Assembly: GCA_020723505.1 (NCBI GenBank)
Contig: DYIT01000001.1
Span: 72,530 to 136,529 of the forward strand
Reading direction: 5' to 3'
From: Candidatus Kuenenia stuttgartensis
GTDB lineage: Bacteria; Planctomycetota; JAKEIC01; DYIT01
DNA length: 64,000 bases
Part shown: piece by piece, positions 1-25,405 of the stretch
Layout of the letters: each line of letters opens with the position of its first letter
Position numbering within the stretch: the stretch's first letter is position 1
Notes under the pieces: generated by a model
Databases searched by the model: none
Told to the model about the DNA's origin: nothing
The model's input: the letters and a program-made list of their open reading frames with translations, nothing else
Made by a program: the position numbers and the translations under genes

Positions 1-1964
1 AAGCCAGGCTCGCGGCGAAGGTCAACCACCACAATATAGTGCAGGTCTTCGACGCGGGCGCCGAAGGCGAGGTCTACTTCATGGCCATGGAGCTCGTGGA
101 GGGCAGAAACGTAGGCGAAGCCCTGTCCGCGGCCGGCCGCTTCCCGTTCGACGCCGCGGCGGAGACCGTGCGCCAGGCCGCATCCGGGCTGGAAGCGGCG
201 AGGGCGCACAGCCTCATCCACCGGGACATGAAGCCCGACAACCTGATTGCCTCCAGGGAAGGAATCGTCAAGATCATGGACTTCGGCCTGGCCAAGAACA
301 CCGAGGATCCGGTGAACGCGACCCGCGCCGGAGTCCTGATGGGCACGCCTTCTTACATATCACCTGAGCAGGTCCAGGGAAAGGACGCGGATCACAGGAG
401 CGACCTCTACGCGCTCGGCGTATCCCTGTACGAGCTCATCTCCGGGGCGAAGCCGTTCGACGGCGAATCGACGATGATCGTCCTGATGAAGCACGTCAAG
501 GAGCCGGTGCCCGACCTCCGGAAAGCCAGGCCCGACACGCCGCCCGGGCTCGCGGAAATCGCCCGGAAGCTGATGGAAAAGGATCCCGGACGCCGGGTTC
601 AGACGCCTTCTGAACTCGCGGACATGCTGAGACCGTTTGCGGGCGGAAAAGGGGAGGAGAAACTCGCTGGTTTTCTTTTCAGGGAATGCGCGCAGAAATC
701 GGGCGGCCCGGGGAAGCTGGCGACCCTCTTCGCGCGGCCCGGCGCCGGACACGAGCAGGAGCCTCCGAGACAGGCGGAGCCCGGTCCCGGGAAACGCGCC
801 GCCCAGGGCAGATACATCAGCAAGGGAATAATAGAGATCGGGAAGACGGCCGAGGACAGGCGCCGCTTCGAGAAATACGCGAAGCTTGCCAGGGATTTCG
901 AGAAGGCGGCGGACTGGACCAGGGCTTCGGAATTCTGCCGCAAGGCCCTGGGCGCCTGCGGAACCGGCCCGGAATCCGATGAAATGCGTTCCGCTGCCGC
1001 GAGGTTCGAGAAGCTGAGGAAGGGACAGGCGGGTGCGGCTTATACGCGCGCCCGCGCTGCCATGGAGGCGGGCGAGAACGCGAAGGCGGTGAAGCTCATC
1101 GACGCGTATCTTTCGCTGAACGGCGCGGACGCTTCGGCTTCGGCGCTCAGAAAGCAGTCGGAGACCACGCCGGAAGGGTTCAAGTACCTGGGCCTCAACA
1201 GGCAGAGGAACCACGAATACGAGTGCATAAAGGCAGGCTACGCGGTGATTTACATCAACGGAGCCGAAGCCGTTCTCGGGGGCGACGATGGGTCCAAGGA
1301 CGAAAAGCCCGGACACCGCGCAAGGCTCGATTCCTTCTTCATGGGCAAATACCCTGTCACCAACGCCCAGTACGCGCGTTTTCTCGACTCTGCGCAAGGA
1401 TCCGGAAGCCACGCGTTCTGCCACCCCCTTGAGCTGGTCGGTCACAACCATGAACCCCTGTTCCAGAACGACGCCAGGTGGAACAAGCCGAACCATCCAG
1501 TGGTCGGAGTGGACTGGTTCGACGCATGGGCGTTCGCATCCTGGGCAGGGCTCTGTCTGCCCACCGAGGCGATGTGGGAGTTCACGGCCACCGGCGGCGG
1601 CGCATCCCGATACCCCTGGGGTGACGGAGCTCCGGCGCCGGATTCATGCAACTATTTCGAATCCCGCTTGAACGGCACCACTCCCGTGGACCGGTACAGG
1701 ACCGGAGCAGCGCCTTCCGGGGTCATGGACCTGTCCGGCAACGTCTTCGAATGGTGCGTTGACTGGTATCACCGGGGGTTCTACGGCCGCGAGGCGGCGG
1801 TCGCGCCGAATCCCTGCAATACAATCGCCACCGCAAGGAAGTCGCTGAGGGGCGGGGCCTGGACCTCGCCCGCGGAGAACCTCCGTTCGAGGAAAAGGGA
1901 GGCCGACTATCCCACCTCCCGGCAGAACTACATCGGTTTCCGATGCGCGATGGCCTACTACTAG
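1..1964 (+). CDS. Ser/Thr protein kinase fused to FGE/SUMF1-like domain (5' end outside window)
   Basis: The ORF track starts at a GTG at 39, but the same frame is open back to base 3 and reads AARLAAKVNHHNIVQV-like kinase sequence, so the true start lies upstream of the window. The kinase C-lobe is clear: catalytic loop IHRDMKPDN, DFG in MDFGLAK, and the activation-segment end GTPSYISPEQ. A helical, TPR-like stretch follows (about residues 270-380), then an FGE-sulfatase-like domain with YPWGDG, GNVFEWCVDWY, RGGAW and GFRCA. Kinases of this family phosphorylate Ser/Thr on protein substrates; FGE-like modules fused to kinases usually serve as ligand- or protein-binding C-lectin-type folds rather than as sulfatase activators. 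No transmembrane helix is evident, so it is probably cytoplasmic. Its substrate is unknown. Confidence 0.9.
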   Translation, partial: ARLAAKVNHHNIVQVFDAGAEGEVYFMAMELVEGRNVGEALSAAGRFPFDAAAETVRQAASGLEAARAHSLIHRDMKPDNLIASREGIVKIMDFGLAKNTEDPVNATRAGVLMGTPSYISPEQVQGKDADHRSDLYALGVSLYELISGAKPFDGESTMIVLMKHVKEPVPDLRKARPDTPPGLAEIARKLMEKDPGRRVQTPSELADMLRPFAGGKGEEKLAGFLFRECAQKSGGPGKLATLFARPGAGHEQEPPRQAEPGPGKRAAQGRYISKGIIEIGKTAEDRRRFEKYAKLARDFEKAADWTRASEFCRKALGACGTGPESDEMRSAAARFEKLRKGQAGAAYTRARAAMEAGENAKAVKLIDAYLSLNGADASASALRKQSETTPEGFKYLGLNRQRNHEYECIKAGYAVIYINGAEAVLGGDDGSKDEKPGHRARLDSFFMGKYPVTNAQYARFLDSAQGSGSHAFCHPLELVGHNHEPLFQNDARWNKPNHPVVGVDWFDAWAFASWAGLCLPTEAMWEFTATGGGASRYPWGDGAPAPDSCNYFESRLNGTTPVDRYRTGAAPSGVMDLSGNVFEWCVDWYHRGFYGREAAVAPNPCNTIATARKSLRGGAWTSPAENLRSRKREADYPTSRQNYIGFRCAMAYY

Positions 1965-4245: not shown

Positions 4246-5313
4246 ATGGTCACCCTCGAGGAGCTGCTGCAGATACTCGTGCAGCGCAACGGATCCGATT
4301 TGCACATAACAGCCGGGTCTCCGCCGAAAATCCGCATCGACGGCAGGCTGGTCAACACGGAGCACGACGTGCTCACGCCCGAGATGTCGCAGAAGCTCGT
4401 GTACAGCATCCTCGACTCCAACCAGATTGCCCGATTCGAGAAGGACCTCGAGCTCGACATGTCGTTCGGCATCGAGGGGCTCGGCAGGTTCAGGACCAAC
4501 GTCTTCCAGCAGCGCGGCGCCATAGGCGGGGCGTTCCGAATCATCCCCTATGACATAAAGAGCATGAAGGAGCTCGGACTCCCTCAGGACGTGTGCGAGA
4601 GCCTGTGCGCTCTTCCAAAGGGGCTGGTCCTGGTGACCGGGTCGACGGGCTCGGGCAAGTCGACCACGCTCGCCAGCATGGTCGACTACATCAACACGGT
4701 CCGTACCGACCACATCGTGACCATAGAGGACCCCATCGAGTTCGTGCACCGCAACAAGAACTGCCTCGTGAACCAGAGGGAGGTCGGCGCCGACACGCAC
4801 ACTTTCCAGGACGCGCTCATCCACGTCTTGAGGCAGGACCCCGACGTGATTCTAATCGGCGAAATGCGCGACGTGACGACCATCGAGACGGCCCTTACGC
4901 TGGCCGAGACCGGGCACCTCACCTTCGCCACGCTGCACACCTCCGACACGGTCCAGACCATGAACCGAATCGTCGACGTGTTCCCGGCCTACCAGCAGCA
5001 GCAAATCAGGACGCAGCTCTCCTTCACGCTGCAGGCCGTGTTCTGCCAGCAGCTAATCCCCCGCGCCAACGGCCGCGGACGCGTCCTGTGCGCGGAAATC
5101 ATGATTGCGAACTCGGCGGTCAGGAGCCTAATCCGCGAGGACAAGGCCCACCAGATCTATTCCGTAATCCAGACCGGAGGCAAGCTCGGCATGAGGACGA
5201 TGAACCAGTCGCTCTTCGACCTCTACCGCGCCGGGCTGGTCAGTTACGACGAGGCCATGTCCAGGACCTCCGACCCCGAGGACCTCAAGAGGACTTTCGC
5301 AAGGTACCAGTAA
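4246..5313 (+). CDS. pilT: Type IV pilus retraction ATPase PilT
   Basis: 355 aa, typical for PilT. The ORF track begins at 4111, inside the upstream gene; ATG 4246 is preferred because GGGGAGG precedes it and the protein then starts MVTLEELLQILVQR, the usual PilT N-terminus. Walker A is GSTGSGKSTT, Walker B ILIGEMRD, and the His box is TGHLTFATLHTSD. PilT is a cytoplasmic hexameric ATPase that powers depolymerisation of type IV pili, giving twitching motility or DNA uptake. It is followed 18 bases later by pilB and then pilC, so the three probably form one transcript. Confidence 0.95.
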   Translation: MVTLEELLQILVQRNGSDLHITAGSPPKIRIDGRLVNTEHDVLTPEMSQKLVYSILDSNQIARFEKDLELDMSFGIEGLGRFRTNVFQQRGAIGGAFRIIPYDIKSMKELGLPQDVCESLCALPKGLVLVTGSTGSGKSTTLASMVDYINTVRTDHIVTIEDPIEFVHRNKNCLVNQREVGADTHTFQDALIHVLRQDPDVILIGEMRDVTTIETALTLAETGHLTFATLHTSDTVQTMNRIVDVFPAYQQQQIRTQLSFTLQAVFCQQLIPRANGRGRVLCAEIMIANSAVRSLIREDKAHQIYSVIQTGGKLGMRTMNQSLFDLYRAGLVSYDEAMSRTSDPEDLKRTFARYQ

Positions 5314-5331: not shown

Positions 5332-7017
5332 GTGCCCAGGAACAGCAAGCTGGACAAGAGGCTGGTTCGAATCCTCGTCCATTGGGGGCTGATGTCCACC
5401 GAAGACGCGGAGAACGCGGCCATAGAGGCGGAGAAGGAGGACAAGCCCCTGAGCCTCTACGTGGTCGAAAAGCAGAAGGTGGACGAGAAGGCCATGATCG
5501 GCGTGGTCTCCAAGGAGGTCGGGGTGCCGCCAATCGACCTCGATTCCATAACCTTCGACGAGTCGCTCACCGAGGTGTTCGACAAGGAAGTTGCGCTCAA
5601 GCACGAGGTGTGCCCGGTCTCCATTCTCGACAACATCATCACCATAGCGGTCGCGGACCCGTTCGACTTCGTCAAGATAGACGACCTCAAGCTGGTCGCG
5701 GCGGGCAGCGAAATCAGGACGGTCATCAGCTCGGAGCGCAAAATCCACCAGGCCGTGGACCGTCTATACAACAAGAGCGCCAAGGCCATGGAGGACCTGC
5801 TCAAGAGATCCGCCGACGGATCGATGGTGCTCAAGGAGGACGAGGAGGACGAGGAGCTCGACCCGGACCTCGTCAGCGCAATCCAGGACGGCGACGAGGA
5901 GTCGCCCGTGGTCAAAATCGTCAACCTGATAATCATGGAAGCCATCAGGGCCAAGGCGTCCGACATACACATAGAGCCGATGGAGAAGCGCCTCCGCATC
6001 CGCTACAGGACGGACGGCGTGCTCCACGAGGTCCAGTCGCCGCCCAAGAAGATGCAGTCCGCGGTCGTCTCGCGCATAAAGGTCATGTCCCAGATGGATA
6101 TCGCTGAGAAGCGCAAGCCGCAGGACGGCAAGATTAAGATGATGGTCGACGGCCGCCACATCGACTTCCGCGTATCCACGCTCCCGCTTGTCCACGGCGA
6201 GAAGACCGTGCTCAGGATTCTCGACAGCTCTAGCCTTATGATTAACCTCGAGGCGCTCGGCTTCGAGCCGAAATGCCTCGTGGACTTCCGCTGGGCCATC
6301 AAGCAGCCATACGGGATGATCCTCGTTACCGGCCCCACGGGAAGCGGCAAGTCCACCACCCTGTACTCCGCCCTCAAGGAAATCATGAGCATAGAGGACA
6401 ACGTCATCACGGTCGAGGAGCCCGTCGAGTACCAGCTCGAGGGCATCAACCAGGTGCCCGTGAACGCGAAGAGGGGCCTCACCTTCGCTGCGGCGCTCAG
6501 GTCCATCCTGCGTCAGGACCCGAATAAAATCATGATAGGCGAGCTCCGCGACCTCGAGACCTCGGAAATCGCCGTGAAGGACGCCTCCTAGGCCATAACC
6601 AGGATGGTAGACATGGGCGTCGAGCCGTTCCTGGTCGCTGCCACGGGCCTCCTCACCACCGCACAGAGGCTCTCGAGGAAGCTCTGCTCGGAGTGCAAGG
6701 CGCCGGCTGAGGTGCCCAAGGAGACACTGCTAAACATGCAGTTCAAGGCCGAGGAAATCGAGAACGCCCACATCTTCAAGGCCGTTGGATGCCCGAGATG
6801 CCGCAAGGGCTACAAGGGCCGCGCGGCCATCGTCGAGTCGCTCAAAATCACCGACGCCGTGAAGAGGATGATCATCCAGGGCAAGACATCCCTCGAAATC
6901 AAGGCCTACGCGGTGGAAAAGGAGGGGATGATTACCCTGAGGCGCGCCGCGATTTTGAGGGCCATGAGAGGCGAGCTCTCGCTTGAGGAGCTGGAAAGAG
7001 TTACAATGGCCGACTGA
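5332..7017 (+). pseudogene. pilB: Type IV pilus assembly ATPase PilB, interrupted by in-frame TAG and missing the His box
   Basis: GTG start at 5332 with GGAGGG just upstream. The protein has a MshEN/T2SSE N-domain (GVPPIDLDSITFDES, then IAVADPFDF), Walker A GPTGSGKSTT and Walker B IMIGELRD. After LETSEIAVKDAS the frame meets TAG at 6589-6591 and then continues in the same frame with AITRMVDMGVEPFLVA, the normal downstream PilB sequence, ending with the tetracysteine zinc site (CSECK and CPRCRKGYKG). Compared with the family, about 15 residues (the TGHLV-STLHTN His box) are absent just before the stop. A point change alone would not explain this; a 45-base deletion plus a nonsense codon would. 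PilB normally powers pilus extension. As read, the gene gives a 419-aa truncated protein and a 137-aa tail (6604-7017). Assembly error is possible. Confidence 0.85.
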
Positions 7018-7075: not shown

Positions 7076-8314
7076 ATGCCGAAGTTCAGGTACTCGGCCA
7101 AGAACGCCGAGGGAAAGAAGCTGTCCGGAACCGTCATCGCCCAGGACGAGAACGACGCCGTCGGAGAGCTCAGAAAGCAGAGCCTCGTCGTCCTGTCCGT
7201 GAAGCAGGAGTCCGAAGCCAAGGGCAAGGGCTTCCTGGGACTGGGCGGCAAGGCTCCGCGGCCCAGGGTGAGGGGCGACGACCTCGTCGTGTTCACGAGG
7301 CAGCTCGCCACCATGATTAACGCCGGCATCACTCTTCTTGAGGCCCTGGACATCCTGTCCGAGCAGGCCGACGACAAGGGATTCCAGTACGTCCTGTCCA
7401 CGATAGTCGACGACGTGAGGAGCGGCACCGACTTCTCCACCGCGCTCGGCCAGCACCCGAAGGTCTTCAAGCGCATCTACGTTAACATGGTCAAGGCGGG
7501 CGAGGCGTCCGGCCAGCTCGACGAAATCCTCAACAGACTCGCGGGGTACCTGGAAGCTTCCGCCGCCCTGCGCAGGGAGGTTATCGGGGCGATGACCTAC
7601 CCGGTGGTTTCACTGTGCCTCGTTATGGGCATCACCGGTTTCCTGCTCATATACATCGTTCCCAAGTTCGAGGAGATATTCAAGTCGTTCGAGAACCTCG
7701 AGCTGCCCGCCATCACCAAGTTCCTCCTCGGGCTGTCGAAATTCCTGAGCTCGAACGTCCTCTTCATCGTGCTGGGACTGATTGCATTCGCCATCGCGTT
7801 CACCTTCTACAAGAAGACCGACAGGGGCGAGTGGCAAATCGACTGGCTCAAGCTCCAGCTGCCCATCTTCGGGAGCCTCTTCCGGAAGATTGCCATCTCG
7901 CGTTTCGCGAGGACTTTCGCGACCCTGATAAAGAGCGGCGTGCCAATCCTCGGCGCCCTGGAAATCGTGGCGGCCACCGCCGGCAACAGGCTCATCTCCG
8001 ACGCAGTGGACGCCGCCCGCGAAAGCGTCAGGCAGGGCGAGTCCCTCGGAGACCCCCTTGCCGCCAGCAAGATGTTCCCGCCGATGGTCACGCGCATGAT
8101 AAGCATCGGCGAGAAGTCGGGCGCGCTCGAAAGCCTCCTCGAGAAGATTGCCGAGTTCTACGACCAGCAGGTGAAGACGACCATAGAAAGCCTCACGTCC
8201 CTGATTGAGCCCCTCATGCTCGGACTCATGGGCTTCCTGGTCGGCTCAATCGTACTGGCGATTTTCCTGCCCATCCTCAAGCTCCAGAGCCAGCTGTCGT
8301 CCGGGGGGGGGTAA
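7076..8314 (+). CDS. pilC: Type IV pilus inner-membrane platform protein PilC
   Basis: 412 aa with the layout of PilC/GspF: N-terminal MPKFRYSAKNAEGKKLSG, two T2SSF domains, the first containing FTRQLATMINAGITLLEAL and the second FARTFATLIKSGVPILGAL, and hydrophobic segments near residues 170-195, 220-245 and 380-405. PilC is the membrane platform on which PilB and PilT act. The start at 7076 has TTGGAGATG upstream. It follows the damaged pilB by 58 bases and ends 29 bases before a strong intrinsic terminator, so it closes the pilT-pilB-pilC unit. Confidence 0.93.
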   Translation: MPKFRYSAKNAEGKKLSGTVIAQDENDAVGELRKQSLVVLSVKQESEAKGKGFLGLGGKAPRPRVRGDDLVVFTRQLATMINAGITLLEALDILSEQADDKGFQYVLSTIVDDVRSGTDFSTALGQHPKVFKRIYVNMVKAGEASGQLDEILNRLAGYLEASAALRREVIGAMTYPVVSLCLVMGITGFLLIYIVPKFEEIFKSFENLELPAITKFLLGLSKFLSSNVLFIVLGLIAFAIAFTFYKKTDRGEWQIDWLKLQLPIFGSLFRKIAISRFARTFATLIKSGVPILGALEIVAATAGNRLISDAVDAARESVRQGESLGDPLAASKMFPPMVTRMISIGEKSGALESLLEKIAEFYDQQVKTTIESLTSLIEPLMLGLMGFLVGSIVLAIFLPILKLQSQLSSGGG

Positions 8315-8391: not shown

Positions 8392-10077
<1,686 letters not shown>

Positions 10078-21199: not shown

Positions 21200-24100
21200 T
21201 CATATGCGTATCCGGAGTCTCTGTTCCGTGCGGGACAGCGCAGGGAGCCATGCAAGCCGGCCGCCGTAATAGTGGCTTACGCTGTCCGAGGGAAACGCGG
21301 TTCGGCTGGATGCTCTCGAAAGCAGCGGAGCGCCCGGCCAGCACCCGCCGCGGCAGACCCTGAACGAGGCGTTCTCGTCGCCGGGCGGATTCAGACAGCC
21401 CTCGCGCGCGTTACCCGCCATGCCCCTTGCGCCGAAAGGCGACTCGTCCACTGGGAAGGAACCCACCGGGCTTGGCCGGATGCCGCCCGCATGCGAGGTC
21501 GAATTGTTGCAGAACGTCCCGTCCATGTGGTCGCCCCAGGGATAGATTCTGGAGTCCACGCCCCTGGCCGCCTTCTCCCACTGGACCTCGTGCGGAAGCA
21601 TGAAGAGCCTGCCTGATTCCTTGGTGCGCCAGGACGCGTATGCCGCGAGATCCTCCCATGAAATCCCGAACACCGGCCAGTCGGGATCCCACCAGACCGG
21701 GCTCATCTCCAGCTTCCCCGCCTGCCGCTTCCAATCCTGATTCTCCTGATCCCGCTTCCTTGCTTCGCCTGCATACGCCGGCAAGGGCTTCGCAGGGCTG
21801 GCCGCGGGAGACTGATTCACCTGATTCGAGGCGGAAACCTCCAGGATCCACTTCTCCGTGGGGATGTGGAATCGGCCTTCGGAATCCCTCGGCCAGTAGA
21901 AGCCGGCAGTCGGAACCTTCCTGGGAACGCGTTTCTCCGCCCCGGCAGCTGTGTTCAAGAAATGAAGGTACTCGCTGCACGTGACCGGGAACTTCGAGAT
22001 GAAGAAATCATCAGTCCACCTGTACGCCGCGGGAAGCGAATACGGATTGTTCCTGTCCCCCTGGTATGCGAATCCCCCGCCATGCACCTGCACGAATCCA
22101 CCGGGGATTTCCTCCTCGCGGTACAGCGTGACCGTCAGCCGCTCCTCCGCAAGCCTGCCGATGTTCACGACCGCGCGAATGGGGGCGTACTCGTGCTCAG
22201 TGCAAGGGTGGAGGGTGGAGGTTCGAGGGTCGAGCGAACTCGCTTCTTCAGGCATTTTGCTTCCACTCTTCCACACGTCATCCTTCACCCTCTCCTTATG
22301 CTCCACCCCGGACCCTTTGCCCTTTACCCTGTCTTCCTTGCCGTATGCGACGACGATTAGGTACGACCCCATTGGAAGCCTGAACTTGGGGATGGGGGTC
22401 TTGCCGAGATAGAGGCCGTCGGAGGGCCGGAAGGGCGAGCCGGTGTCGTACAGGCGGTCGAGAACTTGGGGTGGGAGGGTGGAAGGGTGGAAGGGGGGAA
22501 GGGAGGAAGGGGAATCAGGCAATGAAGGCAGTATTGGCAGAAGAATCCTTCCCCGCTCTTCGAACCTGAAGAGCCACACGTCCGCGCCGGCAAGGGGCTG
22601 CGTCTTGCATTCAGTCCCGTGGACCTTGAGGTGCAGCGGCTCCTCCGGATTGGTCCCGGCCGGCTCTTCCGCGATTTTGCTTTTTGCCGCGCGGCGGGAG
22701 CCCATCACTCCGCGGCTGGAAGGGTCCAGGGTCGAGGGGGGAGGGTTCGGCGAGCAGGAGCCTGCGTCTCCTTCCGCAGCCCGCGTACTCCTACCCTCCC
22801 ACCCTTCACCCTTCACCCTTTCCCCTGCCAGCTCGTCCGGAGCGACAAAGCGCCCTTCCGTCAGGCATCGGCAGGGGAAGTGCCTAGTCAAGATTGCCAG
22901 CGTCCCGTCCCCCTTGAGGCGCATGTCGAACGATCCGTCGTTGTATTCCCGGACGAGGTTCTCGCAGAAGAGCATCTCCTTCCTGTTGCCCTTCTCCTCC
23001 TCGAAAAGGAACTGCCGCCAGTACATCTCGGCAAGGGCCGTCCGGGCTTCGGCGTTACCCCTGTCGAATTCGAGCGCCGCCTGCAGCGTTCTTCCTGCCT
23101 TCGAATAGACGCGGACCGATTCGTCCGAAAGATTCTGGAACCGGGCTTCGATGTCCCACAGCTCCTTCTTGCGCTCGACCGGCCAGTGCTGCCTGACCTC
23201 GGCCTGTTTTTCCATGATGCGCAGCTCGAGGTCGTTCAGCTCTTCCCTGATGCGATCGAGCTCCGCGATGAGCGCCCTGCCTTCAGCTATCTTCTCCGAC
23301 GCCTTGCCGCGGTCCCGTTCCCGTTCCCTCTCCCCCTCGAGGAATCTTCCAATCCCCGCATTCAGCTCGCGCACCGACTGGAACCGGTCCTCCTTGCGCC
23401 TCGACATGGCCTTGAGCACCATCGCATCGAGCTCTGCAGGAACCGGATGGGGCGGGAGGTCCTCGGGGGCAGGGTGGAGGGTGGAGGGTGGAGGATTCAC
23501 CGGGAGGGATTCGATTTCTGCCGCCTGCACCTCATGCGGCTCGACCCTCGACCCTTCAACCTTCACCCTTTCGGAGTCTGCGCGGGCCTGCCTGATCTCC
23601 TCCACGCGCCTCGAAGGCGGAACCAGGCATCCGGAAAGCACCTTGTCGATCACGCTCAGGACGCTGCTGCCCTCGAACGGCGCCCTGAGGGTCAGAATCT
23701 GGTACAGGATTGCGCCGAGCGAGTAGACGTCGCTGCGCTCATCAATCTCCTTGAGCTTGCCGTCCGCCTGCTCGGGCGGCATGTAGGACGGACTGCCCAC
23801 GATGTCGCTCTCCCACGTCGCGTCCGTGTCGTCCGCGTCCCATGCTCCGGCAGCCCTTGAGCGCATCCGCGGGGCCTCCATCATCCCCTTCCGGCCTGCA
23901 AGGCCCCAGTCGACCACGAACACCTCGCCGTAGTTCCCGACCATCACGTTGGAGGGCTTCAGGTCCCTGTGGATGATGCCGTGGTCGTGAGCGAACTCGA
24001 TTGCGTTGCAGATGCCCTGGAAGATCCCGAGAAGCCTAGGCATGGTGAACGCGGCGATGGATTCCGCATCCCCGTTCCGGATTGAAAGCAGAATCTGGCC

Positions 24101-24757
24101 GAGGTTCCTTCCCTCGATTTTCGCCATGGTGAAGTATGGCGTGTCCACCCCCTGGTCCTTGAGGATGCCGATGTCGTAGACCGGGACTATGTTGGGGTGG
24201 GGCAGCCTGCCTGCTATGCGGCCTTCGGCGAGAAACGGCTCCGCGTCGCCCCCGGCGTTCTCGGGAAGCATCATCTTCACAGCCACTTCCCTGCCGAAGT
24301 CCGTGTCCACGGCCTCGACCACGCGGCTTATGCCTCCCCTCCCGAGCTCCCCGCGAAACACGTACTTGTCCTTCTGCCCCCGCCTCAGCTTCGTGGTTCC
24401 CGCCTTGGATCTCCGCTGGGACTTGCTCCTCGACTTGAGCTCGGACCTGTCCATGGGTCCGCCCGTCGCGGGCCCGCCGAAGCATGCGAGCACCTCTGAT
24501 CGGATCGAATCCCCAACGGGAAGGGTGGAAGTCGCGGTTCCTGCATTGCCGCCGCTCTTCGCGATAATCTCGGCCGACAGGAGCATGAGCGCCTTGAACG
24601 CCTGCTTGTTGATGCTCCCCTTCTCGACCAGGATCTCGGCAAGCGCCCTGCCTGGGGACGACATCAGAACGTCGATGGATCCCCGCAGGTCCTCAATCGA
24701 TACTAGCCCGAGCTGGCGCCCGAGCATTGCCACGAGCATGTCGGTCTGGGATGACAT
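21200..24757 (-). CDS. Ser/Thr protein kinase fused to FGE/SUMF1-like domain, with in-frame repeat insertions
   Basis: 1185 aa from ATG 24757 (MSSQTDMLVAMLGRQLG); the ORF extends to 25057, but that extension reads through a dispersed inverted repeat, and a TATAAT lies just upstream of 24757. An N-terminal helical domain (1-125) precedes a kinase with ELGRGG, AVKMML, IHRDLKPSN, DWG in place of DFG (VVDWGLA) and MPPEQA. A coiled-coil/TPR-like middle leads to a C-terminal FGE-like domain (about 880-1170: FFISKFPVTCSEY, RIYPWGDH, RGGCW, YYGGRLA). Low-complexity insertions encoding RVKxEG...PPPSTLHP-type sequence lie near residues 395-429, 645-680 and 809-852, with a partial one near 748-763 and another type near 975-1010. 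The first splits the kinase C-lobe loop before PAELDAMVLKAM. All insertions keep the frame open. Confidence 0.88.
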   Translation of the reverse strand: MSSQTDMLVAMLGRQLGLVSIEDLRGSIDVLMSSPGRALAEILVEKGSINKQAFKALMLLSAEIIAKSGGNAGTATSTLPVGDSIRSEVLACFGGPATGGPMDRSELKSRSKSQRRSKAGTTKLRRGQKDKYVFRGELGRGGISRVVEAVDTDFGREVAVKMMLPENAGGDAEPFLAEGRIAGRLPHPNIVPVYDIGILKDQGVDTPYFTMAKIEGRNLGQILLSIRNGDAESIAAFTMPRLLGIFQGICNAIEFAHDHGIIHRDLKPSNVMVGNYGEVFVVDWGLAGRKGMMEAPRMRSRAAGAWDADDTDATWESDIVGSPSYMPPEQADGKLKEIDERSDVYSLGAILYQILTLRAPFEGSSVLSVIDKVLSGCLVPPSRRVEEIRQARADSERVKVEGSRVEPHEVQAAEIESLPVNPPPSTLHPAPEDLPPHPVPAELDAMVLKAMSRRKEDRFQSVRELNAGIGRFLEGERERERDRGKASEKIAEGRALIAELDRIREELNDLELRIMEKQAEVRQHWPVERKKELWDIEARFQNLSDESVRVYSKAGRTLQAALEFDRGNAEARTALAEMYWRQFLFEEEKGNRKEMLFCENLVREYNDGSFDMRLKGDGTLAILTRHFPCRCLTEGRFVAPDELAGERVKGEGWEGRSTRAAEGDAGSCSPNPPPSTLDPSSRGVMGSRRAAKSKIAEEPAGTNPEEPLHLKVHGTECKTQPLAGADVWLFRFEERGRILLPILPSLPDSPSSLPPFHPSTLPPQVLDRLYDTGSPFRPSDGLYLGKTPIPKFRLPMGSYLIVVAYGKEDRVKGKGSGVEHKERVKDDVWKSGSKMPEEASSLDPRTSTLHPCTEHEYAPIRAVVNIGRLAEERLTVTLYREEEIPGGFVQVHGGGFAYQGDRNNPYSLPAAYRWTDDFFISKFPVTCSEYLHFLNTAAGAEKRVPRKVPTAGFYWPRDSEGRFHIPTEKWILEVSASNQVNQSPAASPAKPLPAYAGEARKRDQENQDWKRQAGKLEMSPVWWDPDWPVFGISWEDLAAYASWRTKESGRLFMLPHEVQWEKAARGVDSRIYPWGDHMDGTFCNNSTSHAGGIRPSPVGSFPVDESPFGARGMAGNAREGCLNPPGDENASFRVCRGGCWPGAPLLSRASSRTAFPSDSVSHYYGGRLAWLPALSRTEQRLRIRI
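21725..21835. repeat. CTGATTC-rich in-frame insertion in FGE domain
   Basis: CCTGATTCTCCTGATCC and GACTGATTCACCTGATTC bracket about 100 bases that translate on the minus strand as NQVNQSPAASPAKPLPAYAG... The stretch interrupts the FGE-like domain between two conserved blocks without breaking the frame. It is a different word family from the GGGTGGAGG insertions. Confidence 0.5.
22204..22331. repeat. GGGTGGAGG insertion element, copy A (in gene)
   Basis: The + strand starts GGGTGGAGGGTGGAGG and ends in pyrimidine-rich CTTCACCC/CCCTTTACCCT, giving imperfect complementary ends. Minus-strand translation begins DRVKGKGSGVE and ends RTSTLHP, in frame with the kinase-FGE gene. Confidence 0.7.
22467..22515. 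repeat. GGGTGGAAGGG insertion element, partial copy B (in gene)
   Basis: Only the purine-rich arm is present (GGTGGGAGGGTGGAAGGGTGG). It translates on the minus strand as SLPPFHPSTLPP, again in frame. Confidence 0.6.
22718..22825. repeat. GGGTGGAGG-family insertion element, copy C (in gene)
   Basis: Starts GGAAGGGTCCAGGGTCGAGG and ends CACCCTTCACCCTTTCCCC. Minus-strand translation begins ERVKGEGWEG and ends NPPPSTLDP, in frame with the kinase-FGE gene. Confidence 0.7.
23472..23575. repeat. GGGTGGAGG insertion element, copy D (in kinase C-lobe)
   Basis: Starts AGGGTGGAGGGTGGAGGGTGG and ends CCCTTCAACCTTCACCCTTTC. Minus-strand translation begins ERVKVEGSRVE and ends NPPPSTLHP. It sits between the SRR stretch and PAELDAMVLKAM, which are only a few residues apart in related kinases. 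Confidence 0.75.
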
Positions 24758-24933
24758 CGGGTGGATTATAACAGGCTGGAACAGCCTCTGCATAACCCGG
24801 ACGAACCGGAACCCATCGCTGAAAAGCCATGCGCGGGGCGGGTCGGGCCGGCAACCGGCAGGGGAGTCGTGGGGTCTGGGAAGGACTTGCGAGACGGAAC
24901 TGCCGCGCTTCCCGGTTGCGGTTGTCATGTCGT

Positions 24934-24973
24934 ATCCCACACGAAGCTTGTTGCTTCCCGCTTCGTGTGGGAT
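24934..24973. repeat. Inverted repeat ATCCCACACGAAGC / GCTTCGTGTGGGAT
   Basis: 14-bp arms at 24934-24947 and 24960-24973, the second member of the family at 19792-19831. The spacer 24758-25405 around it has no gene; it also holds a CCCTCACCC/CCCTCTCCCC run near 25017-25040. Confidence 0.8.
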
Positions 24974-25405
24974 TCGTGTACGTGTACGAAAATGTAGACG
25001 GGAACGGCAATACCCCTCACCCTTACCCTCTCCCCAAGGGCTGGTCTTTACCCACAAGTATCAAGTTTGATGCGGGTTTTATGCAACATCAGGCTGCAGC
25101 CGCCTCACGTGTCGAAGACCCGCCGAGCCCACGACCATCTGTTTAGGCGAAGGCGGGTCGGGGCGAAGATCACGGCAGCTGAGTGCCGTTGCCGCAGCAG
25201 GGTGCCCCGGCTCAAGCGATGTCGCTCATCGCAATCCCGCTCATCCCCGTGACTCCGAGGCTGCGCGAGATAGAATAGGCAGCGAAGCGTATGCGGCATG
25301 CAGGGGCCGATGATGATTTCAGAACGCGCCGAAGGAATGCATCCGGAACACGACCCGGGCAATCCCGGACCCGGGAGGGATTCGGTTTCAGGCCCGTCCC
25401 GGTCC

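Follow-up and report, generated by a model that had tools for sequence, protein, structure and literature searches.

The pilB gene of this Candidatus Kuenenia stuttgartensis draft genome, as assembled, lacks the core of its HIS box and carries an in-frame TAG close by, and with moderate confidence we regard this lesion as an artefact of the assembly or consensus, the gene itself being intact. The gene lies in the 64,000-nucleotide stretch of DNA analysed here (the window), where the following features were recognised:

4246..5313, plus strand: pilT, the retraction ATPase, intact, with TGHLTFATLHTSD (TIGR01420, 483 bits vs a cut-off of 319)
5332..6591, plus strand: 5' part of pilB with MshEN, Walker A and the Walker B/catalytic Glu region, ending at the TAG (Pfam T2SSE 3-232 and MshEN; TIGR02538 is the best NCBIfam match)
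6579..6580, plus strand: deletion junction, 45 bases (15 codons) missing (alignment with the G001 orthologue, L029, and 42 orthologues)
6589..6591, plus strand: in-frame TAG, at a position usually occupied by Ser in orthologues (translation, orthologue alignment)
6592..7017, plus strand: 3' part of pilB in the same frame, with the C-terminal tetracysteine region, CSEC...CPRC (Pfam T2SSE 251-370, 1.5e-22)
6610..6633, plus strand: 24-base exact repeat common to this gene and the pilB/gspE paralogue on contig C51 (sequence match)
7076..8314, plus strand: pilC/gspF-type inner-membrane protein, intact (two T2SSF domains)
8392..10077, plus strand: PilS-like sensor histidine kinase (6TM_PilS, PAS, HisKA, HATPase_c)

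The gene is readily recognised as a PilB-type extension ATPase of type IVa pili (TIGR02538; PF00437 with MshEN): it has a T2SSE fold with an MshEN N-domain, and its translation contains, in the domain order of that family, a Walker A motif (GPTGSGKST), a catalytic Glu after Walker B (IMIGELRD) and the tetracysteine region. Its place between pilT and pilC, both intact as originally predicted, is that of type IVa loci, and many of the compared genomes likewise have pilT and pilB as neighbours. Unlike PilB, however, the window gene has no HIS-box core and is interrupted by a TAG, and the truncated ORF scores only 453 bits, below the TIGR02538 cut-off of 675.65. Elsewhere in the window, positions 21203-25060 (minus strand) encode a protein with a protein-kinase domain and an FGE-sulfatase domain, which the ORF at 39-1964 (plus strand) resembles by eye.

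Translated in a single frame, positions 5332-7017 run through GELRDLETSEIAVKDAS, the TAG and AITRMVDMGVEPFL with no change of frame; past the stop the frame stays open and continues normally to 7017, the tetracysteine region lying in frame downstream of the interruption. The sister-genome comparison that had been proposed was made with G001, the sole other genome compared from the same class as this one, whose orthologue shares 71% protein identity with the window pilB and keeps the HIS box. In the DNA alignment of the two genes, one 45-base block is absent from the window gene and homology is continuous on both sides. The 15 missing residues, AALTGHLVLSTLHTN, form the core of the HIS box (TGH..LSTLHTN), which is present in 42/42 aligned Planctomycetota-type orthologues and absent from the assembled pilB, where 11 conserved columns of the alignment (AATGHVTLHTN) are lacking. 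The original prediction of a 45-base deletion and a nonsense change, with 15 residues missing and a TAG at the same spot, is thus borne out by the translation and by comparison with relatives.

The arrangement is unique in the material compared. Across 113 genomes of the phylum, some 120 orthologous matches (E below 1e-155) include two with an internal stop, the window pilB and G057, and since G057 is alone in this among the other matches the window lesion is beyond chance. None of the other matches shares the combination of a TAG and a missing HIS box, and the motif is kept in all loci read, including two public Planctomycetota metagenome-assembled genomes. In the G057 orthologue (L088, G057:C179:1000-6000, minus strand), the TAG lies before Walker A (SRL*ILSN) and the HIS box is intact.

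Outside the lesion, the gene shows no decay. In an alignment of 43 sequences, with a conserved column defined by at least 97%, the window pilB agrees at 82 of the 83 conserved columns that precede the lesion and at 21 of the 22 that follow it, the sole further loss being the deleted block itself. Its 3' part stands nearly as close to the outgroups as the intact G001 copy does (identity 0.513 vs 0.528), and the substitutions between the window gene and G001 are still constrained, with pN/pS values of 0.145/0.484 for the 5' portion of the gene and 0.298/0.522 for the 3' portion. Taken together, the undecayed columns, the outgroup identity and this constraint show that any release of pilB from selection is at most very recent. 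Since the rest of the gene has not decayed, the most likely cause is an error of assembly or else a mutation of very recent date, in keeping with the earlier view that the flanks are well conserved and the lesion is either recent or erroneous. Furthermore, the deletion and the TAG lie together inside a 12-base span of an otherwise undecayed 1.7 kb gene, which suggests a single event or a faulty junction.

Two observations speak for an artefact of assembly: (i), the 24-base exact match to the C51 paralogue begins only 19 bases past the TAG and is the longest stretch that pilB shares with the C51 region; and (ii), elsewhere in this draft, on contig C4, another pilB-type gene passes inside VRDLETAEIAVEAALTGH from a GC content of 0.60 to one above 0.70 and into non-PilB sequence. 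The C4 break falls within the motif RDLETAEIAV, and VRDLETAEIAV corresponds to the codons just before the deletion in the window pilB. Because of this misjoin at the same motif and the paralogue repeat beside the lesion, we consider an artefact likelier than a real mutation. The setting resembles that of the frameshifts, stops and misjoins found at conserved motifs in metagenome-assembled genomes, with a lesion beside a paralogue repeat and a further misjoin at the same motif in a draft genome. The draft consists of 207 contigs, is 89% complete with 4.4% contamination, and carries runs of 10 or 100 Ns in several of its contigs. As for C4 itself (L061, G000:C4:6000-18000), the C-terminal half of a pilB-type gene runs on in frame into unrelated sequence at about 6100-6330, with GC going from about 0.60 to 0.70-0.76, and the contig looks chimeric; the genome bin probably holds foreign sequence. 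Pfam gave no support to the idea that the foreign part encodes a sigma factor.

We propose that, in assembly, 45 bases were probably dropped and one base miscalled where contigs were joined, beside sequence common to pilB and its paralogues. The two lesions, the undecayed remainder of the gene, the adjoining paralogue repeat and the misjoin at the same motif elsewhere in the draft can all be read directly; that this particular junction was the assembler's doing is what we infer from them. In the organism, pilB would then be an ordinary gene in a pilT-pilB-pilC-pilS series, with PilB acting as the extension ATPase. Several points nevertheless speak against an artefact. Both flanks clearly belong to one gene and one lineage, with no Ns in the window, and the event would have to be a local deletion, unlike the misjoins of two organisms known from metagenome-assembled genomes; the C4 misjoin, which joins unrelated sequence, also differs in type. 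A short-read graph assembler normally needs junction-spanning reads to write a junction. Finally, internal stops are found in 0 of 51 ABC-ATPase domains and 0 of 16 other T2SSE matches in the genome, and the error rate is therefore low in general.

The rival reading, to which we give appreciable though lesser weight, is that a real loss-of-function mutation arose very recently in the sampled strain, by a short deletion and a second change or by one complex event. The sequence is continuous across the lesion, without Ns, in a 140 kb contig, and stops are otherwise rare in the assembly. The product would be a 419-residue PilB without the HIS box and the C-terminal part, and hence also without the tetracysteine region. 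Such a truncated PilB would very probably be inactive, HIS-box mutations in PilT-like ATPases being known to disrupt ATPase activity and in vivo function (PMC5424180). In that case the strain would either lose pilus extension or depend for it on another of its PilB/GspE proteins.

The search for a second pilB, which the original prediction had called for, did find candidate stand-ins beside PilC-type proteins: contig C3 encodes a PilB-type ATPase of 575 aa, a PilT-PilB ORF (whose 750 bits exceed the TIGR02538 cut-off) and a PilC, C51 encodes GspE and GspF, and C73 encodes GspD, GspE and GspF. Further matches lie on C186, C79 and C99. For an intact second copy of the same pilB allele, the search of the genome returned only lower-identity paralogues. 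The C3 ORF (L058, G000:C3, 1875-4679, plus strand) is a 935-codon frame that encodes all of PilT (aa 10-348) followed, with no intervening stop, by all of PilB (aa 376-932), and the corresponding cluster of G001 (L105) has a separate PilT; the frame may represent a true fusion of the two motors, for retraction and for extension, or the loss of a stop codon.

While a real mutation is plausible, the gene shows no sign of decay apart from the two clustered lesions, and the ends of the deletion share only about one base relative to G001. In the assembled flanks, no direct repeat sits at the junction that would account for slippage; with almost no repeat at the deletion ends, no ready slippage mechanism is visible. 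Neither is there a structured element at the junction, where folding of the single strand is no stronger than in shuffled sequence (z 0.87).

That the TAG is read through, by pyrrolysine or a suppressor tRNA, so that a HIS-box-less PilB works as a regulatory or dominant subunit, we regard as very unlikely, and a full-length, non-hydrolysing regulatory motor subunit made in this way as more improbable still. The frame does remain open before and after the TAG, and its downstream part is conserved, but this conservation is equally expected from a young lesion, the arrangement is shared by no orthologue, and mutations of the HIS box disrupt PilT-like ATPases (PMC5424180). Moreover, TAG terminates 13 of the 43 ORFs called in the window, the broken pilB included, and is therefore an ordinary stop here. 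No pyrrolysine system was found that could be the means, the only PylS match in the genome (89% complete) reaching 22 bits vs a cut-off of 178.15.

Whether artefact or mutation, the lesion is an ordinary one, and it more likely lies in the assembly than in the organism. A claim that this lineage has lost pilus extension should not rest on this locus. More generally, draft assemblies of metagenomes can be vulnerable at conserved ATPase motifs that recur in many pilB/gspE paralogues.
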